A DNA stretch of 40,517 bases from an uncultured Clostridia bacterium (GTDB lineage Bacteria > Bacillota > Clostridia > Christensenellales > Borkfalkiaceae), in contig CAMWQS010000002.1 in the NCBI GenBank assembly GCA_947176485.1, positions 1 to 40,517 on the forward strand, in the 5' to 3' direction. Position 1 is the first letter of the stretch; each line of letters opens with the position of its first letter. Both the position numbers and the translations under genes were made by a program. Shown here piece by piece: positions 15,729 through 38,400 of the stretch. Under the pieces are notes generated by a model. That model searched no databases. It worked only from the letters and a program-made list of their open reading frames with translations, and had not been told where the DNA came from.

Positions 15729-15734
15729 ATTTCA

Positions 15735-15766
15735 GCCCGCGTTTCCCCGGAAACGCGGGCTTTTTT
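15735..15766 (+). terminator. Rho-independent terminator
   Basis: GCCCGCGTTTCC-CC-GGAAACGCGGGC-TTTTTT. Confidence 0.92.
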
Positions 15767-15824: not shown

Positions 15825-15853
15825 TTGACACGCGTATATTTTATTATTATAAT
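15825..15853 (+). promoter_or_regulatory. Consensus sigma-A promoter heading the AAA+/MBG cluster
   Basis: TTGACA - N17 - TATAAT. Confidence 0.85.
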
Positions 15854-15944
15854 AGTAAAACACGTTTATTATAATACACACGCACCGCGCAGGGCGCGGA
15901 CGGCGAAAAAGTAGGTAAGCACACCGCTTTAAATGGAGGCGCAG

Positions 15945-18900
15945 ATGTTGGCGAACGAACGGCTCATCTTCAAAATGTCAATAGAGCAGAAAGTCAAACT
16001 GGTAACGAGCTTGAAACTGTACGAGAATTCGGCTAACGAAAATTACGAATTCCCCGTATTCAAATTGACCCGAAACCCTTTGGATGGGGAGTCGGGCGTT
16101 TACGCTACGCAGTTTCCTTCGGACAGGGCGCTTGCGTCTTGTTGGAATAACGCCCTCGTTACCGAGGTTTATTCCAAGCGCGGCGAAGAGGTTGCCGCCG
16201 TCAAAAAATACGCTTGCTTCAACGTTACCGACTCTCTTTCCGCCGAAAATATTGCAGAAGATTACTTTTTAACCGCAAGCACCCTCGGCAGCAAGGCAAA
16301 GGGACTTGCCCGTGCAAGGCAGTTCGTTAACTTTGAGGAGTTTATCCCGCAAAGCGGCGAAGAGCAGTCCGTCAAGAATTTGCAAGACGTCGTTTTGAAA
16401 GCCGCTTCGCCCCGTTCGGTTTACTTGAAAAACCCCGAAAATATCGAAAATTACAAAAACCAAGAGGACGCGGGTTGTCTTTTCTACGGTGTAGCCGGCA
16501 GTGCGGACGAGGCGCTTAAATACTTTTTAAACGGCTGTACGCTGGTATTTTTGAAAGGGGACTTTACGGCGGAGATTATCGCCAAGCTCAAAGTGCTCAC
16601 CGTCGAGTACAGGTCGGCATACGCCGATTACCGCTCGAAGGCAATAACTTTATCACAGCTTGACGCACGCTGTCAGTCGCTTGAAATCTTCGACGAAGAG
16701 ATTTTAAACGAGGCTTGCGACAAGCTTATTTCAACTCTGCTTGAAATGCGCAAGCGCAACCAAGAGGTTCCTCCCACCAAGACTGCGGTTAACCCCAACC
16801 ACGCTGCGGCTTTCGACGAGATTTCAAACGACTCGCTTTCAATAACGGCGGCAAGGCAGTCCGTAGTTTTACTTAAAAACAGCGGAGTTTTGCCCCTTCC
16901 CGCGACGACGAAGGTTGCCGTCTTGGGCGACAGTGCAAAGGACTATATTTACCAAACCGAGTTTTATAGCGGTAAGGCAACCGCAGAAAGATTGCCCTTC
17001 TACACGGTAAACAATTACGAGATTGACGCCGCGGGTTTTGCTAGCGGCTACGCAAAGGGCGAAGGCGTAAGGCAAGATTTAATCGATATCGCCGTAGACC
17101 TCGGCAAAGACGCGGGACTTGCCATCGTGTATTTAAGCGCGGAAAAGGACGCTAAATCATTGCCCGAAGGGCAGCTGGCGCTTATCGACGAGCTGAACAA
17201 AAACGGCGTTAAGCTCATCGCCGTGGTTGCGTCGGACGGCATTATCGACTTTGCATTTGCGCAAAAGTGCGATGCGGTTCTTCTGACTTACCGCGGCGGG
17301 CAAGGCAGCACCCGCGCAGTGCTTGATATTATCAAGGGCATTGCCACCCCTTCGGGACGCCTTACACAAACCGTCCCTATGGATATAAACAACACCCAAA
17401 ACTATTTGACTATACCCCGTAACGAAGTGCGTTATCCCTTCGGTTACGGGCTTTCCTATACCAAATTCGAGTATTTGAACCTTAAAATCAACGAGCGCGG
17501 CATAAGCTGCACTGTAAAGAACGTGGGCGATTGCGACGGCTTTGCCGTGTCGCAGTTCTACGTGCAGAAGTTCCGCTCTTCAAGCATTTTCAAGGATAAA
17601 ATTCTGCGCGGCTTTTCGAAAGTTTATATTAAGAAAAACGACTCCGTCCGCGTTGAAATTCCCTTTGACGAAAACACCTTTAAAATCTACGACGCCCAGT
17701 CGGGGCTTTACCGCATCGAGGGCGGCGAGTATACCGTCAAGATTTCCGAAAACTATTTTGACGATAGGCTGGTCGGCTCGATAACGCTTGCAAGCTACGT
17801 GTTTAAAGACGAGTACAAGGGCGAAATCGTCCAAAGCGTGCAGAACTCCGACGGCACCGCGGTTAAGTTTGACGTAAACCAAGAACCGCCCGAAGTCAGA
17901 AAAGCCAAAAAACAGCTTTCCTTCGGCGTGAAGCTGTTCGTTGCAATCCTGATTGCAATTTACTACGAGGGCGTGATGGCGGTGCTTGCCTTCACCGATA
18001 TCGTCTGGGACAAAGATTTGATTTTCTACCTCGTAATAGGCGGGCTTGCGGCGGTGTGCGTCGCGCTGTTTATAACCTACGTGGTCATAATCGCCAAAAA
18101 GCGCAAAAAGCAGCACTATATTCCCGTGAACGACGTTTTGACCGACCTCGTTGAAAACGTCAAAGAATTCGACGAAGTTTCCAAAGTTACTTATATCGAG
18201 CCCCTGAAGGAAGAACCCGAGGAGGAAGAGCTGCCCGTAACGGCGGCGGAGGAAGCACCCAAGGAAAAGTCCTACGACTTGTCGCTTGAAGAGGACGAAG
18301 AAGTTGAGCTTACCGAAAGGGTTACCTTCCACGAAATCTGCAATAATTTCCAAGCCTTTGCCAATAGCCGCGGCGTTACGGTGGATATAACCTCCGTAAG
18401 GGCGTTGTTCGCCGCAATAGGTGCAAGCAAGATAGTTATCGTTACCACCAAGAACACGGACGTTATGCCCGACTTCCTGACGGTGTTAAACGGCTACTTC
18501 AACAGCCGCGAGCTGACGGTTGTGGGTGAGAATTGGAAGTCGCTTTCGGACCTTATCTGGAAACAGCAGGAAGACAAGTTCGTGCTTTCGGATTTTGCAA
18601 ACACCGTTTATTCGGCAACCAAATCGCCCGATAGGCTTTACGGCGCCGTAATCGACGGGGTCAACGCAGAAACCGTTTTAAGCTGGTTTGCGCCCTTCGT
18701 AACCTACGCAAACCACCCCACCGAAGAGCATAAATTAAACCTGAACGAAGAACTTTCGATAATTCTTCCCAACAACATTTGCTACATATTATCCCCCGCG
18801 GAGGGCTCTGGCGACAAGTTCCCGCGTGAGGTTGCGGACGCGGCAATTCAGCTTGATTTGGTTTTAAGCAAAACCGAGACGGGCGAAGAAGTCGAGGCGG

Positions 18901-19265
18901 ACGTCATCTCGAAGTCCGCGCTTTCGGACCTCGTCAAGGAAGCGAGGGAAACCTTCTACCTTCCCGAAAAGGTTTGGAAGAAAATCGACGAGCTTTTCGA
19001 AACTATCCGCGCCACCGAAAAATTCCGCCTTGGCAACAAAAACACCTTGCAGCTTGAAAAGTTCACCTCCGTGCTTTTGGAGTGCGGCGGGGACGAGGCG
19101 GAGTGCATAACGGATATCTTCCTTGCAAAGCTCGTTCCGCTTTTGAAGCTAACCAAAGCCTACGCGCAGGACGGCGGCGACAAAACGGTTTTCGGCATAG
19201 TCGAAAAGCTGTTCGGCGAAGAAGAACTTACCAAAATTCAAAGGGCGCTTGCTAAATCCGTATAA
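15945..19265 (+). CDS. GH3-like protein (degenerate N-terminal barrel plus GH3 C-terminal domain) - TM hairpin - degenerate AAA+ (McrB/MoxR-like) domain fusion
   Basis: GH3 signatures AARQSVVLLKNSGVLPL, GRLTQTVP, RYPFGYGLSYTKFEY; two TM segments with positive flanks; C-terminal region collinear with the adjacent AAA+ proteins; SD GGAGG 5 nt before ATG 15945 (ORF opens at 15933). Confidence 0.8.
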   Translation: MLANERLIFKMSIEQKVKLVTSLKLYENSANENYEFPVFKLTRNPLDGESGVYATQFPSDRALASCWNNALVTEVYSKRGEEVAAVKKYACFNVTDSLSAENIAEDYFLTASTLGSKAKGLARARQFVNFEEFIPQSGEEQSVKNLQDVVLKAASPRSVYLKNPENIENYKNQEDAGCLFYGVAGSADEALKYFLNGCTLVFLKGDFTAEIIAKLKVLTVEYRSAYADYRSKAITLSQLDARCQSLEIFDEEILNEACDKLISTLLEMRKRNQEVPPTKTAVNPNHAAAFDEISNDSLSITAARQSVVLLKNSGVLPLPATTKVAVLGDSAKDYIYQTEFYSGKATAERLPFYTVNNYEIDAAGFASGYAKGEGVRQDLIDIAVDLGKDAGLAIVYLSAEKDAKSLPEGQLALIDELNKNGVKLIAVVASDGIIDFAFAQKCDAVLLTYRGGQGSTRAVLDIIKGIATPSGRLTQTVPMDINNTQNYLTIPRNEVRYPFGYGLSYTKFEYLNLKINERGISCTVKNVGDCDGFAVSQFYVQKFRSSSIFKDKILRGFSKVYIKKNDSVRVEIPFDENTFKIYDAQSGLYRIEGGEYTVKISENYFDDRLVGSITLASYVFKDEYKGEIVQSVQNSDGTAVKFDVNQEPPEVRKAKKQLSFGVKLFVAILIAIYYEGVMAVLAFTDIVWDKDLIFYLVIGGLAAVCVALFITYVVIIAKKRKKQHYIPVNDVLTDLVENVKEFDEVSKVTYIEPLKEEPEEEELPVTAAEEAPKEKSYDLSLEEDEEVELTERVTFHEICNNFQAFANSRGVTVDITSVRALFAAIGASKIVIVTTKNTDVMPDFLTVLNGYFNSRELTVVGENWKSLSDLIWKQQEDKFVLSDFANTVYSATKSPDRLYGAVIDGVNAETVLSWFAPFVTYANHPTEEHKLNLNEELSIILPNNICYILSPAEGSGDKFPREVADAAIQLDLVLSKTETGEEVEADVISKSALSDLVKEARETFYLPEKVWKKIDELFETIRATEKFRLGNKNTLQLEKFTSVLLECGGDEAECITDIFLAKLVPLLKLTKAYAQDGGDKTVFGIVEKLFGEEELTKIQRALAKSV
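18321..19262 (+). other. Degenerate AAA+ domain within the GH3-like fusion
   Basis: VTFHEICNNFQAF...DITSVRALFAAIGASKIVIVTTKNTDVMPD aligns with ITLKELCEEFRNF...DIEDIRRFIGALAVTKLIILQGMSGTGKTS; VIDGVN vs VLDEMN; LLECGGDEAECITDIFLAKLVPLL vs LVACGGTELEALDDILARKVFRKL. Confidence 0.75.
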
Positions 19266-19283: not shown

Positions 19284-20759
19284 ATGTTAAACTTAATATC
19301 GGCGTTCTCCTTTGCTGAGTTCTTCGGTAAGGTGTGGGACGCGCTGACAAGTAAAATCGCGCTTATAGTCTACGCCGCAATAATATTGGTTCTGATTTTG
19401 GTGATAGTTATCCGCGTAATCGTAAACGAGCAACGCCGTATTGCCGAAATTCAGGATAACGACGCAAGGCGGCACGAGGTTCACGAGAACGAGCAGCTTG
19501 AAACCGTTAGGGCGGAGCTTGACAAGAAGATGAACAAAATCAGCCTTGACGTAGCGGCGGTCAAAAGAAGCGTAGCTTACGGCCCGCTGAGCGTGATGCC
19601 CGTAGGCGCAACGCCCGCGCACGCCGGAAGCGGCGCAAGCACGGATGCGGCGGAGGGCGAAGAGGAAGTGAACGAAGGCGGTTCGCGCTTCTATATGCTT
19701 ACCGAGATAGACAAAGAGTACGAGAATTACACCCGCCCCGACTACGACGACGATATAACGCTTAAAGAGCTGTGCGAAGAATTCCGCAACTTTTCGGCGG
19801 GTAAATTAAAGCTCTACTACGATATCGAAGATATAAGAAGATTTATCGGCGCATTGGCAGTAACCAAACTGATTATTCTGCAAGGTATGTCGGGTACGGG
19901 TAAAACCTCGCTTGCATACGCTTTCGGCGAGTTCCTTGAAAATAAGACCGTAGTCGTTCCCATCCAACCTATGTGGAAGGAAAGAACAGACTTAGTAGGT
20001 TACTACAACGAATTCACTAAGAGATTTAACGAAACCACGCTTTTGTACAAAATGTACGAAGCTAACAACAACGAAGAAATATACATAACCGTCCTCGACG
20101 AAATGAACATAGCGAGGGTAGAGTACTACTTCGCAGAATTCTTGTCCTTGCTCGAAATACCCAACCCCGACGGAAGAAACCTTGACGTAGTGGCAGACAG
20201 ATGGGAAGACGACCCCAAGCTGTTACAGCACAACGGCAAGTTAAGACTTCCCACCAACATGTGGTTCGTAGGCACTGCAAACAACGACGACAGTACCTTC
20301 TCGATATCGGATAAGGTTTACGACCGTGCAATGGTCTTGAACTTAGATAAAAAGGCAACGCCGTTCGAGGCAGAGGGAAGTTGTAAGAAGATATCCTCAA
20401 CGCACCTTGAAACACTTATGGCAAAGGCGCAGAGGGAGTACGACCTCAGCGACAGAAACCTTCGAAGAATTAAGAAACTCGACGAGTATATGATAAAGAC
20501 CTTCCACATCACTTTCGGTAACCGTATTATGAAGCAGATACGCTGTTACGTACCCGTACTCGTGGCTTGCGGGGGAACGGAGCTTGAAGCCTTGGACGAT
20601 ATCCTTGCAAGAAAGGTATTCAGAAAGTTAGAAAGCAAAAACCCCGTACACGTCAAACAGATGGCGGACGGAGTGTGTGCGTACTTAGACGAGCTTTTCG
20701 GCGAAGATAAGCTCCCGCTTTGTAAAGAAACAATTAGATTAATTGAACAGAACGTGTAA
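19284..20759 (+). CDS. Membrane-anchored AAA+ ATPase, McrB/AAA_5-like (copy 1, single TM anchor)
   Basis: N-terminal TM IALIVYAAIILVLILVIVI; Walker A GMSGTGKTS; VLDEMNIARVEYYFAEFLSLLE; FVGTANNDDSTFSISDKVYDRAMVLNL. Confidence 0.88.
   Translation: MLNLISAFSFAEFFGKVWDALTSKIALIVYAAIILVLILVIVIRVIVNEQRRIAEIQDNDARRHEVHENEQLETVRAELDKKMNKISLDVAAVKRSVAYGPLSVMPVGATPAHAGSGASTDAAEGEEEVNEGGSRFYMLTEIDKEYENYTRPDYDDDITLKELCEEFRNFSAGKLKLYYDIEDIRRFIGALAVTKLIILQGMSGTGKTSLAYAFGEFLENKTVVVPIQPMWKERTDLVGYYNEFTKRFNETTLLYKMYEANNNEEIYITVLDEMNIARVEYYFAEFLSLLEIPNPDGRNLDVVADRWEDDPKLLQHNGKLRLPTNMWFVGTANNDDSTFSISDKVYDRAMVLNLDKKATPFEAEGSCKKISSTHLETLMAKAQREYDLSDRNLRRIKKLDEYMIKTFHITFGNRIMKQIRCYVPVLVACGGTELEALDDILARKVFRKLESKNPVHVKQMADGVCAYLDELFGEDKLPLCKETIRLIEQNV
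19644..20759 (+). repeat. Direct repeat, copy 1 of AAA+ module (1116 bp)
   Basis: Same protein as 23013-24128; nucleotide-identical over 20242-20621. Confidence 0.95.
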
Positions 20760-20765
20760 AACCAT

Positions 20766-22616
20766 ATGACACTTTTAGACATTTACTATCGCGCATTTAA
20801 AGGATACCGCAAGCAGACGGCGGATAACACCGGCTGTGAAAAGGACAGACGCGCCCTTGCGGAATCCAATACTGACGAAGATAGGCTACAAGCAACTAAA
20901 TATTTGTGCAAAATCGAAGAAGACTGGATTCAAGCCATTGAAGAAGGGTTGGTTTTCGTTGAGAAGGCGGTTGCGGAAGAGCGGCAGTTCATAAGAACTA
21001 ACGGCGAGGTCGTGCCCATCGAAAAGGTGCGCAAGATTTCAAAGGACTCCGTAGAACACCTTGCCAAGCACAGCGATATGATAACGCACGTGCCCGAAAA
21101 CGAGGGCGACTTGCTCGTTCCCGATAAGCTGTATATGGTCGAAAAGCTTTCCGACTACGCCGTATACGAAAACCGTTTCCTCTATATGATGCTTTGCTAC
21201 ATAAAGGCTTTTATAGAGTACAGGCTTGAAAAGATTGAAAACCTTCGCCGAACCTACGTCGGCAATATGGAAATTTCAAAGGAAGTCGTAACCAAGAAAC
21301 GCACCTTAAAGGTTAAAGCCGCGGTTTACGAGGAAAGAACGGATAACCCGTTCCCCTTGCCCGACGAAAAATCTGCAAAGCAGGTTCAAAGAATTAAGGA
21401 CTGCCAAAGCATAATAAACGCGCTTTTGAACACCGACCTTATGATGCAGGTTGCAAAGGCGCCCATGATTAAGCCGCCCATCGTTAAGACCAACGTCTTG
21501 AAGATGAACAACAACTTCAAGCGCGCATTGGCTTTATACGACTATATCGCGTCCTACAACGGGCAGGGCTACGACTATGAAGAGGTAGTTTTCAACTACG
21601 CACCGTTTAGCGATAAAATCGCCGACGAAATTGCGGAGGCGGCAAACTTAACCTGCTTCCTTGCCTACAAGACGGGCAACGACATCGAAAGCATTCTCGA
21701 AGCCGAGTACGAGGCGGAGGAAAGAAGGCTTAAAGACGAAGAAGAAAAGAAGCTTATTCAGCGTTTAAAGCGTTTGAAAAAGCGCGCCTTGGAATCTAAC
21801 AAGACCATGGAAGAATACATGCTCGTGTTAGAGGAGCGGAACCGCCAGCTTGAAAAGGACGGCGAGGAGCTTGTAAATTTAAGGCAAGAGGTAGTTGCGC
21901 TTAACGAAAAGATTGACGAGATTAACCGCGAGAAGGAAGAGCTGAACAGACAAGTCGACCTTCTGCGCGAAACCTTGGAAGAAAAAGAGCGCGAGATAGT
22001 CGAGCTGAACCAAAAATATATAGAGGATATGGCGGCGATAAAAGACGAGCATATCCGCGAAATTGCAGAGCTTAACGAGGAGCACGACGGCGAAATAGCA
22101 CAGCTTAAAGCCGACTTTGCAGACGAGCTTGCCGGGACAATCGAAGAACACGAAACCCGCGTTGCAGAGCTTACCGACCAGATTGACGACTTGAACGCAA
22201 CCCTTGAACAAACGGTTGCCGACTTCGAGGAAAAGAACAGTGAGCTCGATAGGCAATTAAACGATTTGGACGCGGCAAAACAGCGCGTTATAGACGAGTG
22301 CGCCGTGAAGATACAGCAAGCCGAAGAGGGCTTCAACAAGGATATCGAAAAGCTTGAAAAGACCCAGCGCATAGAGTTAAAGAAATTGCGTGACGAAAAC
22401 GCGTTAATCCGCGGCGAGCTGGACGGTATACGCGCCCAGCAGGGCAAGCTTACGCCTAGCAGCGACTATACCTCCCGCGATAGGTTCATCGAGCTTGAAG
22501 AAGAATATATGGCTTACCACAGATTTTTCAAAACCCAGTGGGAGTTCACCAAGAAGGAAATCAGAAAGACCATTCTTTGGACTAAGCAAGAAAAGAAAGA
22601 CAGAAAGAAAAAGTAA
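20766..22616 (+). CDS. Coiled-coil protein, tentative DUF2357-like N-terminal region
   Basis: DYAVYENRFLYMMLCYIKAFIEYRL resembles the ENRF-type motif of DUF2357/McrC-like partners; long Glu/Lys heptad-rich coiled coil after about residue 320; no recognisable nuclease motif. Confidence 0.55.
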   Translation: MTLLDIYYRAFKGYRKQTADNTGCEKDRRALAESNTDEDRLQATKYLCKIEEDWIQAIEEGLVFVEKAVAEERQFIRTNGEVVPIEKVRKISKDSVEHLAKHSDMITHVPENEGDLLVPDKLYMVEKLSDYAVYENRFLYMMLCYIKAFIEYRLEKIENLRRTYVGNMEISKEVVTKKRTLKVKAAVYEERTDNPFPLPDEKSAKQVQRIKDCQSIINALLNTDLMMQVAKAPMIKPPIVKTNVLKMNNNFKRALALYDYIASYNGQGYDYEEVVFNYAPFSDKIADEIAEAANLTCFLAYKTGNDIESILEAEYEAEERRLKDEEEKKLIQRLKRLKKRALESNKTMEEYMLVLEERNRQLEKDGEELVNLRQEVVALNEKIDEINREKEELNRQVDLLRETLEEKEREIVELNQKYIEDMAAIKDEHIREIAELNEEHDGEIAQLKADFADELAGTIEEHETRVAELTDQIDDLNATLEQTVADFEEKNSELDRQLNDLDAAKQRVIDECAVKIQQAEEGFNKDIEKLEKTQRIELKKLRDENALIRGELDGIRAQQGKLTPSSDYTSRDRFIELEEEYMAYHRFFKTQWEFTKKEIRKTILWTKQEKKDRKKK

Positions 22617-22625
22617 AGGAGTTAT

Positions 22626-24128
22626 ATGAAAAAGGGCAACGGCAACAACAAAATAGCAAAGTTGATTGCACTGGTTATTCTCATAATCGGTATTTTCGCG
22701 CTGTTCGTTTTTGCTCTTTTACGCCAGTACCAAATTTACAGCGGCAAGTTCCCCGAAATTTCTACGGGAATAAAATATCTTTATATCGTGCTCGTGGTGC
22801 TGCTGCCGTTATTGCTCGTTTTATTAATTCGCGTAACCTTTTCCAAGCGCGACAATACCGACCTTATCACGCCCGACTACTTTGACGTAAACTTCAAAAA
22901 GCTCGAGCGGGAAAAGCAAGCCGTACAGAGCCGCGACGTTCCCAAGCTTGCCAACGTCGATTTTCCTATTAATAATTACGCGCCTGCACGCGTAAACGCA
23001 GCTGCAAGCCCGGATGCGGCGGAGGGCGAAGAGGAAGTAAACGAAGGCGGCTCACGCTTCTATATGCTTACCGAGATAGACAAAGAGTACGAGAACTACA
23101 CCCGCCCCGACTACGACGACGATATAACGCTAAAAGAGCTGTGCGAAGAATTCCGCAACTTCTCGGCTGGGAAATTAAAGCTGTACTACGATATCGAAGA
23201 TATAAGAAGATTTATCGGTGCATTGGCTGTAACAAAGCTTATAATCCTTCAAGGTATGTCCGGTACAGGTAAAACCTCATTAGCATACGCCTTCGGCGAG
23301 TTCTTGGAAAATAAGACCGTAGTCGTACCCATCCAGCCTATGTGGAAGGAAAGAACGGACTTAGTAGGTTACTACAACGAATTCACCAAGAGATTTAACG
23401 AAACGACGCTTTTGTACAAAATGTACGAGGCTAACAATAACGAAGAAATCTACATAACCGTCCTCGACGAAATGAACATAGCAAGAGTTGAGTACTACTT
23501 CGCAGAATTCTTGTCTTTGCTTGAAATACCCAACCCCGACGGGCGCAACCTTGACGTAGTGGCAGACAGATGGGAAGACGACCCCAAGCTGTTACAGCAT
23601 AACGGTAAACTAAGACTTCCCACCAACATGTGGTTCGTAGGCACTGCAAACAACGACGACAGTACCTTCTCGATATCGGATAAGGTTTACGACCGTGCAA
23701 TGGTCTTGAACTTAGATAAAAAGGCAACGCCGTTCGAGGCAGAGGGAAGTTGTAAGAAGATATCCTCAACGCACCTTGAAACACTTATGGCAAAGGCGCA
23801 GAGGGAGTACGACCTCAGCGACAGAAACCTTCGAAGAATTAAGAAACTCGACGAGTATATGATAAAGACCTTCCACATCACTTTCGGTAACCGTATTATG
23901 AAGCAGATACGCTGTTACGTACCCGTACTCGTGGCTTGCGGGGGAACGGAGCTTGAAGCCTTGGACGATATCCTTGCAAGAAAGGTATTCCGCAAACTCG
24001 AAAGCAAAAACCCCGTACACGTCAAACAGATGGCGGACGGAGTGTGCGCGTACTTAGACGAGCTTTTCGGCGAAGATAAATTGCCTTTGTGCAAGGAAAC
24101 TATAAGATTAATCGAACAGAACGTATAA
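22626..24128 (+). CDS. Membrane-anchored AAA+ ATPase, McrB/AAA_5-like (copy 2, two-TM anchor)
   Basis: Two N-terminal TM segments; 371 C-terminal residues identical to copy 1 by reading the ORF track. Confidence 0.88.
   Translation: MKKGNGNNKIAKLIALVILIIGIFALFVFALLRQYQIYSGKFPEISTGIKYLYIVLVVLLPLLLVLLIRVTFSKRDNTDLITPDYFDVNFKKLEREKQAVQSRDVPKLANVDFPINNYAPARVNAAASPDAAEGEEEVNEGGSRFYMLTEIDKEYENYTRPDYDDDITLKELCEEFRNFSAGKLKLYYDIEDIRRFIGALAVTKLIILQGMSGTGKTSLAYAFGEFLENKTVVVPIQPMWKERTDLVGYYNEFTKRFNETTLLYKMYEANNNEEIYITVLDEMNIARVEYYFAEFLSLLEIPNPDGRNLDVVADRWEDDPKLLQHNGKLRLPTNMWFVGTANNDDSTFSISDKVYDRAMVLNLDKKATPFEAEGSCKKISSTHLETLMAKAQREYDLSDRNLRRIKKLDEYMIKTFHITFGNRIMKQIRCYVPVLVACGGTELEALDDILARKVFRKLESKNPVHVKQMADGVCAYLDELFGEDKLPLCKETIRLIEQNV
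23013..24128 (+). repeat. Direct repeat, copy 2 of AAA+ module (1116 bp)
   Basis: Same protein as 19644-20759; nucleotide-identical over 23611-23990. Confidence 0.95.
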
Positions 24129-24157: not shown

Positions 24158-26392
24158 ATGTCTAAATTCAGAAGTTTAATTTTAATAATCGGATTAACGG
24201 TAATCGCCGTGGCGGCTGCGCTTTTGACGGTGCTGGTTTTGTATGCAACGGGAACGATAGTTACCGACCCCATCGAGCTCGTCTATACCGTCGGCAGCAA
24301 AAGCAAGTATTACGACGGCACGCCTTTGACCTTGGCTGACGACGATTACAGCCTCGTAAGCGGAAGCGTTTTGGAAGGACATACCGCACAAGTCAAAATA
24401 ATAGGTTCACAGACCAACGCGGGCGAAAGCGAAAGCACGTTGGAGGTTAAAATTCTCGATAAGAACGGCTTTGACGTTTCGGGCGAATACGCCGTCAAGG
24501 TCAACACGGGCACCCTCACGGTAGAAAAACAGATTTTATCGGTTTCCGTTAAAAGTGACGAGGTTTATTACAGCGGCAAGGAAATCGTGTTTAATAAATA
24601 CGAGGTTACCGGTGGCGAGCTTGCAAGGGGGCACAAATTGGGCGGCGTAAGCGGCACGCTTTTAAACGCGGGGGAAAGCCTTCCCAAAAACGTTGCGCCC
24701 GTCGTTTACGACGCTTTCGATAACGACGTAACCGCAAACTACGACTTCGGCGGGTTCAATATCGGCGACGTTACGGTCGTTGCCCGTCCCCTTACGGTAA
24801 AGCCCAAAAACGTTACTAAGGTTTACGACGGAATTCCGTTTACCGCGTACGAGTACGAAATTACCGAAGGCTCGCTTGCACCCGGGCATGAAATAGAATG
24901 CACCATAACCAATATGGGTGGCGACGTTGCAACCTTTACCGACTGCACCGGCAGCAACGGCGAAAGAATAAGGATAGATTCTTTTAAAATCGTCGACGAA
25001 AACGGTAAAGAGGTAGAGAATTGGGAGAAGAACTACGATTACTCTACGGGTGATGCAGGGCTCGTTACAATCGAGCAACGCCCGCTCACTATAAAAACCG
25101 CGTCCGAAACCTTTATATACGACGGCGAAGCGCATTACAACGATACCTATCAGATATTCTACGGCACGCTTGCGCCCGGGCAAAAGCTTACCATAACGGA
25201 ACCCACTAAGGTTACTACGGTGCAGCAGGGAGTACTCAACAAAGTTAGCTGCGTAATTACCTTGGATGACGACGACGGCTCCACCGTTGACGGGAACTAC
25301 GATATTACTTATATCGAGGGCACCTTGTCGGTTAAGCCGTTTGACCTTACGGTTTACACCAAGTCGTACACGCGGGTATACGACAAGGATAAAACCTTGG
25401 GCGACGCTATGGACGACGATAACTACTGGCTCTCCGTTAAGCTTCCCGAAAAGTTCACTTTAACTGCCGAATGCCCCGACACGATAAAGGCTTTGGTTGA
25501 CGCCGTTGAAGAAACTTATTACAAGCTTCAAAATATTACCATTACTACCGAGGGCGAAAACGGCGTTATCGACTGCACCGGAAACTTCAATATCAACGTA
25601 GTAGACGGCACTTATTCCATAACCAAGCAACCGGTAAAATTATCTGCAAGCACGACGCTAAAAAGTACTTACGACGGCGAAGCTTACACTTTTGATAACG
25701 ATGAAGTATTCGCGGGCGTAAATTTCAGCGACTACGATTTCACCGCCGCTAACTTTACGGTAGACGGCTACTACGAAATCAAAGACGTCGGCAAGCATTA
25801 CTACACTGCCGAATTTACGGGTAGTTCCGATAACTACGACGTAACGGTAGAAAACGGCGTAGTCGAAATCGAGAAAATGTCTGTAACCCTTAATTTTACG
25901 GGCGAGCTCGTAATGAATTACAGCGGTGCGTTCGGCTATTACGATAAGGACGAGGATATAATCGACGGACTCAGCGTCGGCGAAATAGGCACGGTAGAGG
26001 CGGCGGTATTTTCAAAAAACAAGATAGAAGAAATTACCGTTAAAAGCGTTACGGTATACAAAGACGGTAAGGATATAACCTCCAACCTCGAAATCGATTA
26101 CGAAAGCTTAAAAATACCCGTTACCATAAACAAGATAGCGTTCACCTTAAAGCCCGCTCCGTTCTCGGGTACCAGCATTGACGGCGTCGATTTTTCAAGC
26201 TTGGTTACCGCTACCGGACTGGTTGGCGGCGATTACGTAAAGGTTACGACGTGGGACGACGGTTACAGTGAGTATGGCGTAGAGTTCTACACGGTATACG
26301 ATTCAAAGGGTGAAGACGTTACCGACAAGTATTACGAGTGTACCAATCCTAACGCAACAGGCGTAATTAATCTTATTTACATAGACTACTGA
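24158..26392 (+). CDS. MBG-domain repeat protein with N-terminal TM anchor
   Basis: TM LILIIGLTVIAVAAALLTVLVLYA; repeated YDG...GTLTV type MBG modules. Confidence 0.82.
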   Translation: MSKFRSLILIIGLTVIAVAAALLTVLVLYATGTIVTDPIELVYTVGSKSKYYDGTPLTLADDDYSLVSGSVLEGHTAQVKIIGSQTNAGESESTLEVKILDKNGFDVSGEYAVKVNTGTLTVEKQILSVSVKSDEVYYSGKEIVFNKYEVTGGELARGHKLGGVSGTLLNAGESLPKNVAPVVYDAFDNDVTANYDFGGFNIGDVTVVARPLTVKPKNVTKVYDGIPFTAYEYEITEGSLAPGHEIECTITNMGGDVATFTDCTGSNGERIRIDSFKIVDENGKEVENWEKNYDYSTGDAGLVTIEQRPLTIKTASETFIYDGEAHYNDTYQIFYGTLAPGQKLTITEPTKVTTVQQGVLNKVSCVITLDDDDGSTVDGNYDITYIEGTLSVKPFDLTVYTKSYTRVYDKDKTLGDAMDDDNYWLSVKLPEKFTLTAECPDTIKALVDAVEETYYKLQNITITTEGENGVIDCTGNFNINVVDGTYSITKQPVKLSASTTLKSTYDGEAYTFDNDEVFAGVNFSDYDFTAANFTVDGYYEIKDVGKHYYTAEFTGSSDNYDVTVENGVVEIEKMSVTLNFTGELVMNYSGAFGYYDKDEDIIDGLSVGEIGTVEAAVFSKNKIEEITVKSVTVYKDGKDITSNLEIDYESLKIPVTINKIAFTLKPAPFSGTSIDGVDFSSLVTATGLVGGDYVKVTTWDDGYSEYGVEFYTVYDSKGEDVTDKYYECTNPNATGVINLIYIDY

Positions 26393-26444: not shown

Positions 26445-29400
26445 ATGGCATTCGTATCGTATGACAGCTATAAAAACCGAATAGAAAAATTAGCCAAGTT
26501 CAAGAACTTCGTCGTAAAATACAAGTTCTTGATTATGGGCGTGCTCGCAGTTATTTTGGGTGGCGCGTCCGCCCTTATGGCAACTAAGGGCATGATTACT
26601 ACCGATATCACCTTGTCTGCCGATACCTACACCTACGGCGACAGCTACACGCCAACGGTCGGCACCGCGTTTTTAAGCGACGTCGGCTACGAATACAGCG
26701 TGCAGGGCAGCGACGAGTGGACGGAGCAAAAGCCCGTAAAGGTCGGCAAGTACAGCGTAAGGGCGGTATCGAACAAGTTAGTGGGCAAGGGCTACGGCAC
26801 ACCCGTCGACTTTGAAATTCTTCCCAAAAAAGTCGAATTTGCATTCGGCGACGAAACTTCTTTAACTTACGGCAACAAACCTCAAAGATACAACGTAGAC
26901 GGTTTGGTTTTAAGCGATAAAATAGACGTGAACGGCGCAGCCTTCGCTTACGATTATCACGACGAAGCCGACGACGTAAGCGATTGGACGGTTGACGTAA
27001 CCGTTGCCGCGGGCAGCGTTAAGATAGTCGACAAAAACGGAAACGATTCTTCCGATTGCTATATTTACGAAACGGCTGAAAAAACCTTTGCACTTACGAA
27101 GCGCAATCTTCCCGTTAGGCTTCAAAGCTCAAACGATATCTATCGCGGCGCGGAAATTTCCTACGCGGGCGAGCTCATGAGCCCCAACCTTGCCGAGGGC
27201 GACAGCATAGCGTTTGAAACCGAAATCACCCAAAACGGCAGCCCCGCAAAATTATTGGACGCGGGCACTTACGGCGTAAGCATTAAAGAAAATTCAATCA
27301 AAATAACCAAAGGCGGCTCGGACGTGACCAAGCGTTACGATATCGGCGCGCCCCAAAACGGCACCTTCACCGTAAGGCAAAGACCGTTAACTATAACCAC
27401 GCAGGACGGCAACAAGGTTTACGACGGCAAAGCCCTTTCAAACGAGGGCGCAACACCCGACAACTTAGTGACGGGGCACAAGCTTTCGCCTATCGGCGTT
27501 GCACCGTCCATAACCGACGTCGGCAAAATACCGAACGCGCAAACCTTCGATATTTTGGATGCAAACGGCGTAGAGGTTTCGCACAACTACGACTATCAGA
27601 ACAATTATAAATACGGCTATCTCACCGTAACGCCCCGCCCGCTCACTATAACGACCGAGGGCGGCGAATGGGAGTACGACGGCAAGGCTCACCCCGTAAC
27701 GGAATATAACGCAATCGGGCTTGCAGACGGGCAAGTGCTCGTAGTCAATTCCTACGCTTCTCAAACGGCAATTAACGTGGACGACAGCGGCAAAAACTCC
27801 GTCGAGTACAGTATCGCATGGCAAAGCGGCGGCGACGTATCCCGCGACAATTACGCGGTAACCGAAAATTACGGCGATATAAAGATAACCCCGATACCAT
27901 TAAGGGTATTCACGGATAACGGTAGTAAGCCTTACGACGGCACCCCGCTCAGCGTTGAAACTTACACCGTATTTTACGCAGGCACACATCTGAGCGGCAC
28001 GGGTTCAATGTCGTTAGACCTTACACCCGTCGGTAGTATTCCCCGAATTATTAACGTCGGCACAAAGGAAAACGCGATTAACTTCGCCGTGCCAAACAAT
28101 AACTACTACGTAAAAGAAACGGTTAACGGCACTTTGCAAATAACCCAAGCGGAAATAACTATAACGCTTGATAACGCTTCGTGCGACTACGGCGATACGC
28201 TTCCCGCACCCAATATCACGATAAGCGGAAGCGGCATCGTGGGCGGCGAGCTTTTCGGCGGCGATACTTTAACCCCCGCTTTTAAATATCTTAAAGACGG
28301 CGCGACCCCCGCAAGCTACGAGGCGGGCAAAACCTACGATATTTCGCTGGATACCTTAAACAGCAAATTCACCTACGGCAACGACGAACCCGTAACACAG
28401 CCCAACTATAAAATAACTTCTAATACGAGCACCCTCACCGTCGGCACACGCGCAATCACCGTTTATCTCAACGATACTACGGTAACCTACGGCAACGCAC
28501 TTATATACAACCTCGGCAACGAAGAGGTCGAAGGCGTAGTCGGCGGTCAAACCGTTCAAGTCAATTCTTCACAAGTGGTATTCGATATATCGTCGACTAT
28601 GCCCGACGCGGGCACGTACCCCGGCAAAATATCCTGCCCGACCACCGCAATTAAGATTTCAAACGGCACTACGGACGTAACCTCCAACTACGAAGTAACG
28701 GTAGAGGTCTCCACTCTCTATATCAGCCAACGCCCGATAACAGTTCACGCAAAGGATATTCTCGGCGTAATCTACGGCGTAACTCCTCAGTACGAGGTAG
28801 AGGTAGGCAACTATAAATCGATTACCGAAGACGGCCTTGCAAGCGGTGAAACGCTTACGGTTAACAACGTATCTTACCTTACGACAAACGGAATTCCCGT
28901 TGACCCGAGCGATAACCCCGACGTAGGCACTTACAAAATCAAACCCAGCAGTGTATCGATTACGAAGTCTAACGGCGACGACAGCTTGAAAAACTACGAT
29001 ATAACGCCCGCCGACGACGGCGTGTTTACTATCGTTGAGCGGCCTATCACTATACAGTCGGCAACCGACCTCGATTTGATTTACGACGGCACGGCACAGT
29101 ACAGAACGGGCAAAGAAGTTACTTCCGAGCTCAACGTTCTCGGTGGACACCGCATCGAAGTTACTAAATACACAACCGTAACCGACGTATCCGAAGGCAC
29201 CGTTACCAACGAGCTTAAATACGCAATTAAAGACTCGTTCAATAACGTCGTAACTACAAACTACGCTATCACGGACAACTTCGGCACGCTCAAAGTCAAC
29301 CCCAGACCCATCACTATACAGCTTAATAATTACACGGCGGTTTACGGCGAAAGCTACGCGTACGCGACGGGCGCGGGAAATTATGAAAACACCCCCGACC

Positions 29401-32400
29401 TCGTTAACGGCGAAACGCTTGAAGTAACCAAAGTTGCTTACGAGTTCGGCTTCGTTGTAACCCCCAACGTAAGGGATACGGCTTACTGGGTTAGAGGGGA
29501 TACCTTCAAGGTAACCAAAGCAAATGGCGTGCCCAGCACGGGCAACTACAAGGTTGAATGGGTAGACGGCTCGCTTGAAATTACCAAGCGCCATATCGAG
29601 GTTACGCTTAAATCCGACTCGGCAATCTACGGCAACGGCTACGCATACGCCACCGCGTACGCAGGCAACTACGCCAAGACTAAGCTTCTTGACCTTGAAA
29701 CGGGCAACGCGCTAGTTTCGGGCGAACAGCTTAAAATTACCGCAGTTACGTACGAGTACGGCACTGAACAGTACCCCGAAGTGAAAAAAGACGGAGGCGG
29801 TTATTGGATACGCCAAGACGGCTACGAAATAACCAAAGGCAGCGTAGACGGTAAGGGCAACTATGAAATTGAATGGGTAGACGGCACGCTTACTATAACC
29901 CAACGCGGTATATACGTAACCCTCAACGATATTGCCACCGTAAAATACGGCGAAGAAGTCAAGTACCCCGAAGGCTACAAGTCGGAGATGGGCGTACTGG
30001 ATATACATACCGTAACCGTAGGCGCAACTGCGGACGATATGTCGTTCAACCCTGCCGGGGCTGACGCAACCTTCGCTTACCCCGACGCGGGCAGTTACAC
30101 CTTCACTTGCGACGAAAGCTATATAAGCATTTCCGACGCAAGCGGCAAAGACGCAAAGCACAACTACACGGTAAACGTAGTAAAAGGCAGCCTTGAAATA
30201 GAAAAGCGCGAAATCACCGTTAAGCCTACTTCTTATTCGGTAGTGTACGGTGAAAACTTCAACTATTCCACGAACGCTAATCCCAACTACGAAAAAATAA
30301 CCGAGGGCAGCCTTGCAAACTTCGGCGGCGAAACGGAAACCCTTTATATTTTCGTTGACTTGCTTGAATTCGACGGCTTCGTTAAAAAGGACGTCGGCAA
30401 GTACACCTTCACCCCTAACCGTTACACAGTAACCAAGGTTGACGGCACAACCGACAGCTCGAACAACTACACCGTAGTTTTCGAAGAAGGCACCTTAACC
30501 ATAACGCCAAAAGTAATCCCTGTTGAGCTTGAAGAAGTTCCTTTCGTTTACGGCGAGGACGGCCACACGAAGAAAAGCTATGCCGAGCTGTACGCAGAAA
30601 AGATAACAGAGGTTACGATAACCCCCGCAGAAACTCTTAAACTTACTTTCAGCTTTACGAAAAACGGCACCCCCGCTGACCCCAAAGACGCGGGCGACTA
30701 CGGCGTTAAGATAACCAACGGTAAAACCAACAACTATGAAGTCGTATCTAACGATACGGGCAAGCTGACTATAAGCAAAAGACAAATTCACCCCGTACCT
30801 TATTTTAAAACCGCAGAATACGGCACTACGGAATTTATATATCCGTCGGTTGCGGCAAACGGTTCAACGAACTACGACGAGCAATTTAAAGAGTTTTACT
30901 ATAATTTGCCCGCGTATAACGAGAAGATTGAAATTTCAGTTAGCTACGATATCAGTGAAGAAGTGCCTTCCGTGGGCTTCTATAACGCTATTTGCGACGG
31001 TGTAAAGGTCTACGTTGACGGCGTTACCGGCGGCGCGATTGTCGCAAGCGGCAGCGACGGCTTGTTTGAAACCAAAAACTACACTATTTTCATTGACGAA
31101 GACAATTTCGCGGAAAAGCTTGAAATTACTCACCGTAAAATCAAGGTTACTTTAAACAGTATGCCCAACGCGGTTTACGGCGACGAAATCGCCTATAACG
31201 CGGGCGGCGAAACGGCGGATAACCTCGTCAACGGGCACGAGTTAACGGTAGACCCCAACGGCATAGAATTCGACCCTATTGGCAACGCAATCTATCCCAA
31301 CGCAGGCAGATACACTATTACTTCAAACGAAAACTTCATAAAGATTTTAAGCGGCGGAGACGAAGTTACCACGAATTACGAGGTAACCGAGGTTATAAAC
31401 GGCACGCTTACTATAAACGCACGCAAAATTACCTTGACCTTGGAAGATATGGGTGAAATCGTATACGGCACAAAAACACCCGTACCCACGATAACGGGCA
31501 CGGTCAACGGCGATACGGTAACGAACGACGAATTTATCTATAGTAATATCACTACGCCCACTATGTCGTCGTATTTTGAATCCGATTGGTTGAACGGCGG
31601 CGAAAACAGATACTTAACCGTGGGCACTTACCGCGTTTCTATCAATTTGAAAAACGTGCGCGTCTATACGTTTGAATATGCGAACGGCGCACCCGCAGAC
31701 ACCAAAAACTACGACGTTCAAGCGGTTCAATACGCTAACCTTATAGTAAAGCAGCGTCCAATCACCGTTGAATTACAACCCTTTACAAGGGTATACGGAC
31801 AAAACAACTCCGACACCTTAATTTGGCAGAAGAATGGCACCTCGACGGGCTTGTCGTATATCTCCGATATGGATATAAACGACTTGATTTCGATTGATAA
31901 CTTGGCAGCGGGCGAAGGTGTTTACAGCTTGTCCTTGGCAGTATACGCCGAAGGCACGGAAGACGGTGTGGTATGCAAAAACGCGGTCAAGTATTCCGTC
32001 GGGTTAAGCACGCTGGTTTTCCACTACGAGAATGAATCGTCGCAATATACCGAGAACTACGAATACACTTTACCCGCAACGGTAATCTTTGAAATAACCC
32101 CCAAGGACTTAACGGTTAACCTCGGTAATCTAACCTCCGCCTACGGCGAAGACCCGTTTAAAGACTATTTAGGTAAAACGACGACGGAAGGGCTTGCCTT
32201 TGGCGAAATGTTAAGAATTTACTCAATCTTTGCGGAAAAGGACGGCGTAGCCGTTGACGCTCAATACTCCGACGTGGGCAGTTATGACTTGAACGCAAAC
32301 GCTAAGGACACGTATATCTACCCTACTGCAACCTCAGCATTACCGATATACGAAGGCTATAAAAACTACGATATAACCTTTGAAGGCACCCTTAAAATAA

Positions 32401-35400
32401 ACAAGCGTAAAATCACCGTTCAGCTTTACGATAACGAAGTTTACTACGGTGAGGACTACGATTACTTAAATATAAGGGAAGGCGCGTACGTGGGCGTAGA
32501 CGGCGGCCTTGCCACCTGTGGCGAGCAAACGGAAACGCTTGAAATTACCCTCGTCGACTACGGCTTTGAAGCTGACGTATTCCCCAACGCAAGCCGCTTA
32601 ACCTACCCGGTAACAAACTTTGACTGTATTATCACTAAGGTTGACGGCGAAACGCCCGGCACTGATAACTACGATATCAAATTCACCGGCGCAAACCTTA
32701 CGGTAAACAGGCGCCCCGTTACGATAACCTTGCAGTCCGTAGAAGATATTATCTACGGTCAAGACCTTCCCATGCCCGAATACGTAATCAAATACGGTGA
32801 AAAGGACGGACTTGTAGGTAGCGATAAGTTCAACCCCGAATATCTTTGGAGGGAGAGCGGCAGTAACAATTATTACGGCTACGCCTATGAACCCCTTAAG
32901 GGCAACGTGGGCAAGTACGGAATTATCCTTTACCAGGCGTTTAGCTACTTCACCGACGCGGACGGTAACGAGGTTGATAACTACGATATCGTTTCAGAAA
33001 GCTCTTCAAACGAAGTAACCCTCAATATAACTCCGCGCCCCTTAACTATAGAGTTAAAGGATATAACGGTTGAGTACGGACTGTTTAATTCAAGCAGTGC
33101 ATACTTCACCGATGAGAGTATATACGATTTATTGGAAATAACCGGCGAAAACAAACTTGCCTTTAAAGAATCGTTTACTTTGGCAGAGATTCAGCCGATA
33201 AAAGATTCCGACGGCAACCGTCCGATAATGAAAAACGTGGGCAGCTACGACGTAGAACTCGTCGGGCTGAACGTGCTCCGTGGTGATAACGGTACAGACT
33301 TAATTTTCAGCACGCACAGCAACTACGAATTTGCGGAAGATTCCGTTTTAACTGCAACCGTAACCATTAACGCCAAAAAGATTGAAAACCTTAACCTTGG
33401 CACTTACAGCTTTACCTACGGCGAAGAAGAGGAGTTCAGGGAAAAATTCACCTACATAGCAAAATATCCCTACCTTGCCTTTGACGAAACTCTTACCCTT
33501 AAAACCTTCTACGCACTCGATAACGGCGGCAACCCTATTTCCGATAGGCTTGACGCGGGCGATTACACGATAAGCGCAAACCAATCAAGCGCAGTATTCT
33601 CCGACGAATACGGTCAAACCAACTACGAAGTAACCTTCACCGGCACCTTGACGGTTAAGCAAAGAGAAATTACGGTTGTATTGAACGCCTTAGGCTCTGT
33701 AAAATACGGCAAACCACTTGCTTATGCAACGGGGGACGGCAATTATAGGAACACCCCCGACCTTGTGTACGGTGAAAAGCTTGAAGTAGCAGTCAGCTGG
33801 TCGTTTAACGGCGAAATTATCGAAACGCCCAAAAACGCAGGTAGGTATGACTATGCGTTGGACGAAGATAACAGCAAAATTTTTGACGAAGACGGCAACG
33901 AAAAATCGAACGGAATTAAAAACTACTCGATTACTTGCACAAGCAAGATGGCTGTTATAACCAAGTACGGTATCACGCTAACTATCTATGACGAAGAAAT
34001 CTGTTACGGCGACGAACTTCAAGGCAAATCCGGCGTATTCTATCCCATAGATTTCTCGGGCGACGATTTGCCTTACAACGAAACCGTAGAGGTGGCTCAA
34101 AAATACGTCAAAGTAGTAGACGGCGTTGAAGTGGGCGAAGTAGAGAACCCCACGGAAGCGGGCATCTATAAAATTAAGTACGCAGCACATCAAGCTCGCA
34201 ACGAAGACGGAACCGTTTCGGAATACGTGAACTACTCGATAACGGTAGATACCGAAGGCACGCTTACTATTAAACCGCGCCCGATTACCGTCAACACCGT
34301 TGGTTTACCCGACGTATTCTACGGCGAACCCGTAAGCTACCCCGACGACTTAGACGACTACTGCGTGGTAGGCGGAGATGGACTTGTAGAAGGCGAGCAC
34401 GTTGCAATAACCTCGGTTGAGTACTACGACGAAAACGGCAACCCCGTCGACGGCGTACCCACGGCCACGGGCACCTACTTCATAGTTCCCACGGGCGTTG
34501 CAATTTACGACGATAACGGCAATTCCGTAAGCGTTGACAACTACGCTATTACTTATCCAGTCGTTCCCGACGAATTGACAACTTGCGGCACTATCAAGAT
34601 AATGCCCATATTGCTGCATTTGGTAACCGTCGACCACACTTGGGAATACGACGGCAAAGAGCATTCCGACACGGGCTATACGCTTTTACTTATTGACGAC
34701 GCGGGCAATATAACGGATAAGGAGTTCACGCTTTCCGAGGAAGAGGCAAAGCTCGTCAAGGTTGAGGAGAGCTACGCAACGATTAAAAACGCGGGCAGCG
34801 TTCCCAACGAAGTTACATACGACTTCTCCGATACCAACTACGTAATTGCAGAACCCATCGAAACCGGTACGCTTACTATAACCAAGCGCGAAATAACTTT
34901 AATAACGCCCGATTGTATTTATATGGTGTACGACGGTAAGACACACACACCCACGGAAGACACGATTGTAAATAAAATCGAAGAGCACCACTATTTGCTT
35001 GATTATATTACCGTTCAAGATGCGGGAGAATATGAATACAACACCACTATAACGGATATACTCGACGAAGATTTCGTGTCCGTAAAAGGCAACTACAAAA
35101 TTGAATACGAACACGGAACGTTAATCGTAAAACCCCGCCCCATAGGCTTACAGTCGGACGATAAAGAATTTATCTACAACGGCGAATGGCAATATTGGGA
35201 GGGCTACACTCAGCTTGCCGACGAAGATGAAGCGGATTACGGACTGGTTAGCGGACACGAAATTGCCGTTACGGACTACACCACAATCCTCACCGTTATG
35301 CAAGGCGAGGTTGACAACGACCTCGAATACAAAATCACCGACGCAGACGGCAACGTCGTTACGGACAACTACGAAATAAAAGAGGTCAACGGCAAGCTTA

Positions 35401-38400
35401 AAATCAAGCCCGTTGAAATCACGGTTGCTTTAAACGACCGCGTAGTAACCTACGGCAACGAGCTTTATCCCTACGAGCTGAACAATTACGACTTGAATAA
35501 TTCAAGCGGGCTCGTCAAGGACGAACAGCTTCAAGTCGCGGTTAAGTACGAGGACGGGAACGGCAAAGCCGTTGACCCCGTGGACGTGGGCGAGTACACG
35601 GTAGTACTTGACTTATCGGGCTGCTACGTTGAAACGGCTTACGGCGAAAACGGCATCGGCAACTACACGATACTCAACGCCGAAAGCGTTACGGCTCAGC
35701 TTACGATTATCCCCAGGGAAATCACGGTAGAGCTTGACCCGATGACGAAGCAGTACGGCGAAGCGTTCAACGGCTCCGACGCGGGCTATCAATTAGTCAG
35801 CGGCGAGATTGTAAACGACGACGATATAAAGGTATCCGTCTATTGCCCCGACGGCGATATCGACGAAAGAACGGCAGTCGGCGAGTATACGCTTGCTATC
35901 GAGCACTGTACGGTTAACGGCGTTTACAATATAACTATAAACGACACGCCTAATCTTATCCACGCATGGAACTACGATATAACCTATATAGAAAGTAAGC
36001 TCACCGTTACAAAACGCGATATAGTGGCGGTTGCGGCAAGCGCGGAAAAAGAAGGCTATTACGACGGCACTGAATTTTCTTGCACCGAATACGCGGGCGC
36101 GTACAGCGAAGATTACGAGTACGGCGTAATGCCTTGGGACGATATCGCGGACGTTCTCGTATACGTTGAAGGTACGGCAAATTCCGTAATCAACGCGGGC
36201 GACTGGGACAACGAAGCGCAGTTTGAAAGCGCGTCTACAAACTATAACGTAGTCAGAACGGACGTCGGTACGCTTACGATTAAGCAAAGACCCGTCACGA
36301 TTACTTTGTTAGAGATAAGCGACCAAACCTACGGCACCCGCCTTACCTACCCCGACGGAACGGAAGAACCCAACTACGGCTATACGGAAGGTTCGTTGGA
36401 AGTGGTAGAGGGCGAAAAGCTTATTATTGCAGTTACCTTCTACGGCTCCGACGGCGAAGAGGCAGACCCCAAAAACGCTGACGATTACATTTACTCCTTC
36501 TATTTGTACGGCAGCGAAGTTCAAGACAGTATCGGCGGCGCGGGTATAGATAACTACGCTATAACCTGCACGGACGAGATAGGCGCAACCGTAAGCAAGC
36601 TCGAGGTTTCCTTGACCCTTCAAGCTTGGACTTCTACCCACTACGACGGAGAGGAGCACGGATACGACGGCGGAATTGACTACGACTTCCCGTACTACGA
36701 AACGATGGAGCTGGGAGTTGATTACTACTCGGTAGTAGGCGACGGGGAAACGCTTATGGACGGCAAGCCGAGGAACGCGGGCGACTACGTTGCTAAGTAT
36801 AACGAGTCGAAGTCCACTATAGGCGGCATCGCACCTGACGTAAACTACGTAATAAATATTAGCCCCGACGGCGGTATTCCCTTTACTATTATTCCTTTAG
36901 ATATTACAATATCTATGGACACGGAAGAATACACGTACGACGGCACGGTTTACGACTATAAAGATTACAACGACAATTTCAGCGTATCCGAAAGGGTAAC
37001 GGGTGAAACGATAGTTCCCGCCGTAAATTATTACGAAGACGCGGAATTCTCAACCCCCGCAACCCCCAAGAACGCGGGCACCTATTACGTCAAGTTCGTA
37101 TCGTTCACCGTTACGGGCACAAACGACGTAGTTGAAAACTACAACTTATTGAACCCCGAAGAGTGGTGCAAGCTCGTAATCAACCGCAGAGAAATTCAAA
37201 TTCAAGCAGTGCTTAACGGCAACGATTTCTTCTCTATCGAGCGTTACGACGATTTGCCCGAAGAAGGCTTTGAAGACTTCACCTTCGTTGAAGAAGATTT
37301 GGCTAATCTTACGCCCGTATATTCCTACGGCTACTTGGGCGTGGACGGAACCTCCGAGCCCCAAGAGGTTGCAAAGGAGGACGTAAACCAGACCAGAGGT
37401 ACTTACGAATTATACGTAGACTTTACCGAAACGGAAGAGGACGGCAACGTACTCGGCAATTACTTAATCACAGAAAACCTGCCCGCCACGCTTGAAGTAA
37501 CCGCAAGAAGGGTTACCGTAGAGGCGGTGTATAACGGAGAGGAACGCCAATACAACGGCGAAGCACTTGAAGCAACCGATTTCAGCTTCAATCACTGGCA
37601 CGGCGATAACAAGAGCGAGTTAGGCTTCTACGACGACTTCGAGGCAGAGTACGAGCTACTGTTTACCAAGGACGGAGAAGAATCTAACGACCTTCCTGTC
37701 AACGCGGGAACCTATTCCGTAAAGATTAGGGTTACCAACGCCGACGAATCGGTATACTTAGTTTCCGATTCCCAAACGGAGGTTACGGTAACTATTTCGA
37801 AGCGCGTGCTCGTTGCTACGGCACACTACGACGCAAGCGAGTTTGAAGGTATCACCTACAACTACGGTTTGTTACCTACTTCGGTTACCGTTACCGACAC
37901 CGACGAAAACGGTGATATAGGTATCCTCGATAAAGACGTCGAAAAAGGCGTTAAGATTGACTTCGTCTTCTACAACGACAAGCTGAGAAAGGAAGTCGTG
38001 TACAACTACGCAGGCGTTGACGAGATAAGGTTTAAGATTGCAGGCGACAAAGACAAAAACTATCAGCTTTCAACCGCAAGCTCGGGCGAAACCTTCACCG
38101 TAAGCCCGGCAAAAATTTACGTAACCCCCGTGGGTCAAACTGCGGACTACGACGAAGTAGGCAAAGTACTTTCACTTGGCGCATTCGACTACTTACTTTG
38201 GGACGAAAACGGAAACGCAATCGAGGAGCTTTACGGCAGCGATACGCTCAGGATAACCCAATCCAGCGGCGAGAACAAAAATCAACGCTATATTGACGTA
38301 GGTATCAGAGGAGTAGAGATTAAGCAAGGCAACCTTGAAGTAACCCACTGCTACGATATTCACTATTCATACGAGGAGGGCAGCCCCCTTCCTGCAAGTG

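Follow-up and report, generated by a model that had tools for sequence, protein, structure and literature searches.

A conserved, membrane-anchored AAA+ domain without catalytic motifs, encoded together with McrB-like AAA+ proteins in Clostridia and Acholeplasma-related bacteria

The analyzed window, i.e., a 40,517-nt stretch of contig CAMWQS010000002.1 from an uncultured Clostridia bacterium, encodes a degenerate McrB-like AAA+ domain (18303..19262, residues 791-1110) as the C-terminal part of a fused protein (coordinates refer to the window; operon genes and their motifs lie on the + strand). This "dead" domain has lost its catalytic motifs and is best understood, with a rough probability of 0.55, as a conserved, fixed and membrane-anchored non-hydrolysing partner or subunit of a nuclease-less McrBC-like motor complex. 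Common ancestry with the McrB-type AAA+ proteins of the NxD branch is strongly supported by sequence profiles and by the predicted fold. The first-pass annotation had regarded the domain as a degenerate paralogue of the neighbouring AAA+ ATPases, an assignment now borne out by sequence, profile comparison, predicted fold, loss of catalytic motifs and synteny.

The region translates as previously described, with the anchor VTFHEICNNF starting at nt 18321, and its proposed collinearity with the AAA+ neighbours is reproduced by BLASTP (E=1e-18, 22 % identity over 321 aa), all anchor pairs named at the time aligning as given. When 19 orthologous C-terminal domains were compared with 17 AAA+ cores at the profile-profile level, the check suggested in the first-pass annotation, the probability was 99.9 % (E=1.4e-31, 318 columns). 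Searches of Pfam, NCBIfam, PADLOC and PDB with the single dead-domain sequence returned nothing useful, and profiles alone gave matches: a profile of 53 orthologs, compared with all PDB sequences, retrieved E. coli McrB (6hz4, 6ut6) as the sole match (1.3e-5), which argues against a chance AAA+ match; the same protein is the best PDB match of the active AAA+ profile. In the AlphaFold2 model (pLDDT 94.1, pTM 0.92) the domain adopts an AAA+ rather than an unrelated fold, and Foldseek relates this model to MCM, McrB, NorQ, CbbQ and RavA, all of them AAA+ proteins, at modest TM-scores (0.3-0.56) and with large rmsd, as would in our own explanation be expected if the two subdomains were rotated. 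Neither motif inspection nor Pfam revealed an intact nucleotide site elsewhere in the domain.

Loss of the catalytic motifs was assessed from the listed alignment rows and from column counts over the dead copies, with 68 distinct dead and 90 active copies remaining after removal of duplicates. As stated earlier, GMSGTGKTS of Walker A aligns with TKNTDVMPD (18447..18473) in the alignment of dead and active copies, and the Walker B DE is changed to DG (VIDGVN, 18648..18665, aligned with the AAA+ neighbours); in addition, even the Asp of this DG is not conserved across orthologs. While GMSGTGKTSL, VLDE-N, GTANND and YDRA are essentially invariant in the active copies, none of the dead copies listed retains Walker A, Walker B, the sensor-1 Asn or the Arg of YDRA. 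Among the 101 columns invariant in the 90 active copies, no more than 15 persist in half or more of the 68 dead ones, including the GN pair of the lid (Asn in 99 %) and the lid residues CGG/ALD. Further residues are specific to the dead copies and near-invariant therein (G24, E222, W225, K226, D229 and E252).

The retained lid motif reads G-N-K in the window (19032..19040) and GNR in active copies, its third residue being basic in 96 % of orthologs and representing the only basic position noted; an invariant Arg is present nowhere among the 68 dead copies. In AAA+ proteins with a pre-sensor-2 insert (MCM, MoxR, McrB), a residue of the lid is able to act in trans, on the nucleotide bound by the adjacent subunit. 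The basic GN(K/R) residue of the dead domain may still act on the nucleotide of a neighbouring subunit. Since the Arg of YDRA is lost, the domain cannot supply that residue to its neighbour. An analogous situation is known from LAP1/LULL1 and Torsin (PMC4358337), where a membrane protein with an AAA+ fold devoid of nucleotide motifs is the partner of an active AAA+ protein. The dead domain resembles LAP1/LULL1 in being the motif-free AAA+ fold of a membrane protein, no sequence kinship being claimed, and differs from LAP1, which keeps a strictly conserved arginine (PMC4358337); a LAP1-like arginine-finger role is ruled out by the missing conserved Arg.

The dead domain is part of a 1110-aa double pseudoenzyme (15933..19265), composed of a GH3-like region, an Fn3-like domain (17547-17747), a two-helix membrane hairpin and the AAA+ domain. 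Its gene is preceded by a strong terminator-like hairpin (15734-15761) and by a putative operon promoter, a sigma-70 consensus site TTGACA-17-TATAAT (15825..15853, + strand; 12/12 positions, by pattern match only); the operon accordingly possesses one promoter-like site 5' of the fused gene, and its intergenic gaps are short. The earlier label "GH3-like protein" stands as to kinship, the N-terminal part sharing its domain order with GH3 beta-glucosidases (best PDB match 7ms2, 1e-34) and containing a Glyco_hydro_3_C match upstream of the Fn3-like domain (16863..17459, residues 311-509), but has to be extended in that this half (15933-17800) is degenerate too: the nucleophile Asp motif (SDW/SDY) and KHF occur in none of the 52 aligned orthologs, as opposed to the genuine GH3 proteins of the source genome and of one related genome. 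This rules out an active glycosidase.

Hydropathy places the helices of the hairpin at residues 668-686 and 696-714 (17934..18074) with both ends predicted to be cytoplasmic. The two helices were found in 44 of 52 dead-subunit orthologs, and Lys plus Arg residues, counted over these orthologs, number 390 in the flanks vs 32 in the loop, as expected from the positive-inside rule. Together with the lack of an apparent signal peptide on the fused protein, this topology suggests that the GH3 pseudoenzyme half probably faces the cytosol; an extracellular position was discarded on account of the even number of helices and the strong positive-inside bias. No membrane helix was predicted for six orthologs of the dead subunit, which counts against the reading as a motor complex. 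In several loci (e.g., L071, L085, L088, L106) the GH3 module is missing or substituted, so that the dead AAA+ domain rather than GH3 represents the constant part. Other N-terminal parts joined to the dead domain contain many membrane helices or a zinc-ribbon (L096:7210-9594, L077:4224-6185, L106:3131-4882).

Downstream of the fused gene, two active McrB-like AAA+ proteins are encoded, the first (19284..20759) with one and the second (22626..24128) with two N-terminal transmembrane helices, an arrangement that is also the usual one for upstream and downstream copies in other loci. GMSGTGKTS (Walker A, 19884-19910 in the first protein), VLDEMN and GTANNDD (NxD motif NNDD at 20280-20291) show little or no variation among active copies and agree with the signature of the NxD branch; distant relatives carry GTVNMDET. 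The last 371 residues of the two proteins are identical (homogenised motor domains, 19644..20759 and 23013..24128); at the DNA level, the copies share 380 consecutive identical nucleotides and differ at 63 positions, all silently, where random changes would be non-silent in ~79 % of cases. Within genomes, the motors of two-copy loci are 98-100 % identical in 27 of 33 cases, despite only 27-63 % identity of the paired N-terminal anchors and 58-99 % between motors of different genomes. This combination points to repeated gene conversion and strong selection as the likely cause of motor identity. Diverged active copies (66-81 % identity) in loci of the Borkfalkia/Gallimonas type count against a motor complex of the proposed kind.

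The two motor genes flank a gene for a 616-aa protein with an McrC N-domain-like DUF2357 region and a long coiled-coil tail (20766..22616). PF09823 matched it above the curated cut-off (20991..21257, 8e-7) and likewise matched 40 of 42 homologs at the search threshold. Foldseek comparison of the modelled DUF2357 region with PDB (pLDDT of the protein model 81.8) did not retrieve McrC, again counting against the motor complex, and the McrC-like assignment therefore rests on the Pfam profile. A nuclease domain was not matched on the 616-aa protein, nor were PD-(D/E)xK nuclease, modified-DNA-binding or other effector domains detected by Pfam in the operon proteins. The operon continues with two membrane-anchored repeat proteins (24158..26392 and 26445..39038), the first being MBG/YDG-like by eye without a Pfam match and the second comprising 4197 aa, having one membrane helix at its N-terminus and remaining without a Pfam match at a threshold of 0.01. 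The repeats of this giant protein appear MBG/YDG-like by eye as well. Another surface protein (8723-11836, 1037 aa), with bacterial Ig-like domains (Big_2), is encoded further upstream.

Scanning of contigs with the AAA+ alignment, covering the best 80 matches of >500 relatives, yielded 67 loci, the gene orders of which were read from six-frame profile scans. The usual order comprises six genes: dead AAA+, AAA+ with one transmembrane helix, DUF2357-coiled-coil protein, AAA+ with two transmembrane helices and two surface repeat proteins. The succession dead AAA+, AAA+, DUF2357 and AAA+ is present in 39 loci, and in most loci these genes are followed by two for repeat proteins, each with one membrane helix at the N-terminus. 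The dead gene was found upstream of AAA+ or DUF2357 genes in 54 of the 55 loci with enough upstream sequence; among loci devoid of it, L082 alone extends more than ~1.2 kb upstream. Loci with a single active AAA+ gene (pA in 11 loci, pCA in 1), several of them ending at contig edges, count against the motor-complex reading. The genes preceding the loci vary (DnaJ, threonyl-tRNA synthetase, NUDIX and FAD proteins).

The arrangement is preserved in two bacterial classes: clostridial loci include contigs titled Pumilibacter muris, Anaerocaecibacter muris, Candidatus Borkfalkia and Candidatus Gallimonas, and further loci are located on contigs titled Acholeplasmatales, Anaeroplasmataceae, Anaeroplasma and Haloplasma contractile. 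Within the family the distribution is patchy, with the domain matched in 56 of 151 genomes and the long fused form in roughly twenty. In the phylum sample, the system was found in the source genome only, the remaining matches representing more distant NxD AAA+ genes; hence, it is not a general feature of the phylum. The Anaerocaecibacter muris contig carries the full order and that of Pumilibacter muris a fragment of an active motor, and since both are labelled as cultivated mouse-gut species, experiments are conceivable.

According to PMC11090510, a large branch of McrB GTPases, to which those of CoCoNuT and CoCoPALM belong, is defined by NxD with a subsequent D or E, and none of its members had been characterised; CoCoPALM GTPases are described therein as bearing an FtsB-like transmembrane and coiled-coil part. 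In common with these systems, the present one combines McrB-type AAA+ proteins (NxD followed by D) with a coiled-coil DUF2357 partner and lacks the McrC nuclease. It differs from them in possessing two motor copies on different anchors, a dead paralogue and giant surface repeat proteins; the available part of PMC11090510 does not mention a dead third McrB-like subunit. The fusion of a membrane helix to the NxD GTPase and the coiled coil of the DUF2357 protein agree with the brief CoCoPALM description therein, while the signal-peptidase-like pilus assembly gene of that description was found neither near the operon in the window nor in the sampled neighbours. The system thus corresponds to only part of this description. 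Features of type IV (McrBC) restriction systems are a DUF2357 partner, here recognized by Pfam profile (PF09823, 8e-7) and not by fold comparison, and a PD-(D/E)xK nuclease plus a modified-DNA-binding domain, for neither of which Pfam gives a match in the operon proteins; the failure of the type IV definition and the partial agreement with CoCoPALM together place the system with the NxD kind of McrBC. E. coli McrB itself differs in that it has a DNA-binding domain, carries an NxxD motif and lacks a membrane anchor (PMC11090510 and general knowledge).

In the proposed complex, two active NxD AAA+ proteins have one motor domain in common and different anchors of one or two helices, by which the AAA+ rings that they would form should be held to the inner membrane face. 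The DUF2357 coiled-coil protein would stand in for McrC, stimulating the ring and serving as its output arm. The hairpin-anchored dead domain may pack with active subunits via its retained lid and, being non-hydrolysing, would provide a fixed position and asymmetry for the ring. The N-terminal module, which varies between loci (mostly a dead GH3, elsewhere missing or of another kind), could serve as a cytosolic docking scaffold, and motor motion might be passed to the co-encoded giant surface repeat proteins. Near-obligate synteny, purifying selection, selective retention of the GN(K/R) lid motif and membrane co-location all raise the likelihood of the earlier suggestion that the dead domain could enter or cap the AAA+ ring. 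Coupling to the surface proteins is suggested only by co-encoding. One may tentatively envisage a membrane machine, not described before, of gut Clostridia and of relatives of Acholeplasma: its McrB-like ring would be hetero-oligomeric, with two identical motors anchored differently and a single obligatory dead subunit, and would act together with the DUF2357 coiled-coil protein on the giant surface repeat proteins, such that a restriction engine would be reused for cell-surface mechanics or adhesion.

A decaying duplication remnant without a role would be compatible with the loss of all catalytic motifs and with fast evolution, the dead clade being ~4.6 times deeper than the active branch in the FastTree phylogeny, in which long-branch effects are possible. 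This explanation is nevertheless hardly credible: dN/dS values between the window and three relatives amount to 0.10-0.18 for the dead domain (GH3 part 0.13-0.18, active motor 0.016-0.032), frames are open in two bacterial classes, and the dead copies have near-invariant residues of their own. Moreover, with more distant NxD AAA+ genes as the chosen outgroup, dead copies are monophyletic with a support of 1.0 (active copies 0.71). The dN/dS values and the wide conservation show that the dead domain is not decaying; it is under purifying selection, with function retained.

Alternatively, the dead domain could be a membrane tether or adaptor, recruiting ready-made active rings via lid and N-terminal module without ever becoming a ring subunit. 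The N-terminal parts of the active proteins and of the dead subunit vary while the motor core does not, retained conservation resides mostly in the lid, and the N-terminal module is GH3-like in some loci and a zinc-ribbon or missing in others, all of which would suit an adaptor; yet the whole AAA+ fold is kept (pLDDT 94) and not the lid alone, and the active proteins are equipped with membrane anchors themselves, so that we regard this role as the less probable one, albeit of some weight. An anti-phage defence device, a restriction machine of the McrBC type with the dead subunit as its sensor or brake, appears unlikely, because no nuclease or other effector domain was detected in the operon and the co-occurring genes encode giant surface proteins, not methyltransferases or nucleases. 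This holds despite the kinship to McrB/McrC, a match of the AAA+ proteins to the PADLOC candidate PDC-M26A (4e-44), patchy presence within the genus and the proposal in PMC11090510 that NxD relatives are defence systems.

McrBC, known as a DNA-cutting defence engine, appears here in a nuclease-less and membrane-tied form, together with a permanently dead, conserved paralogue and with two motors that selection and apparent gene conversion keep identical. The system makes directly testable (i) how a bacterial AAA+ ring uses a non-hydrolysing subunit, (ii) why two motors stay identical while their anchors differ, and (iii) whether McrB-like motors act on surface proteins.

Other NxD McrB-like AAA+ genes of the same family adjoin shorter DUF2357-like genes (L020, L024, L025, L028-L030, L033), and the short stretches seen at these loci contain no dead subunit; such pairs possibly represent an ancestral two-gene form. 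The gene directly 5' of the dead subunit shares sequence between 19 loci and is absent from the window. In one case (L083:2286-6101), the gene at this position encodes a membrane-anchored leucine-rich repeat protein of the BspA type, the only Pfam match among those tested.
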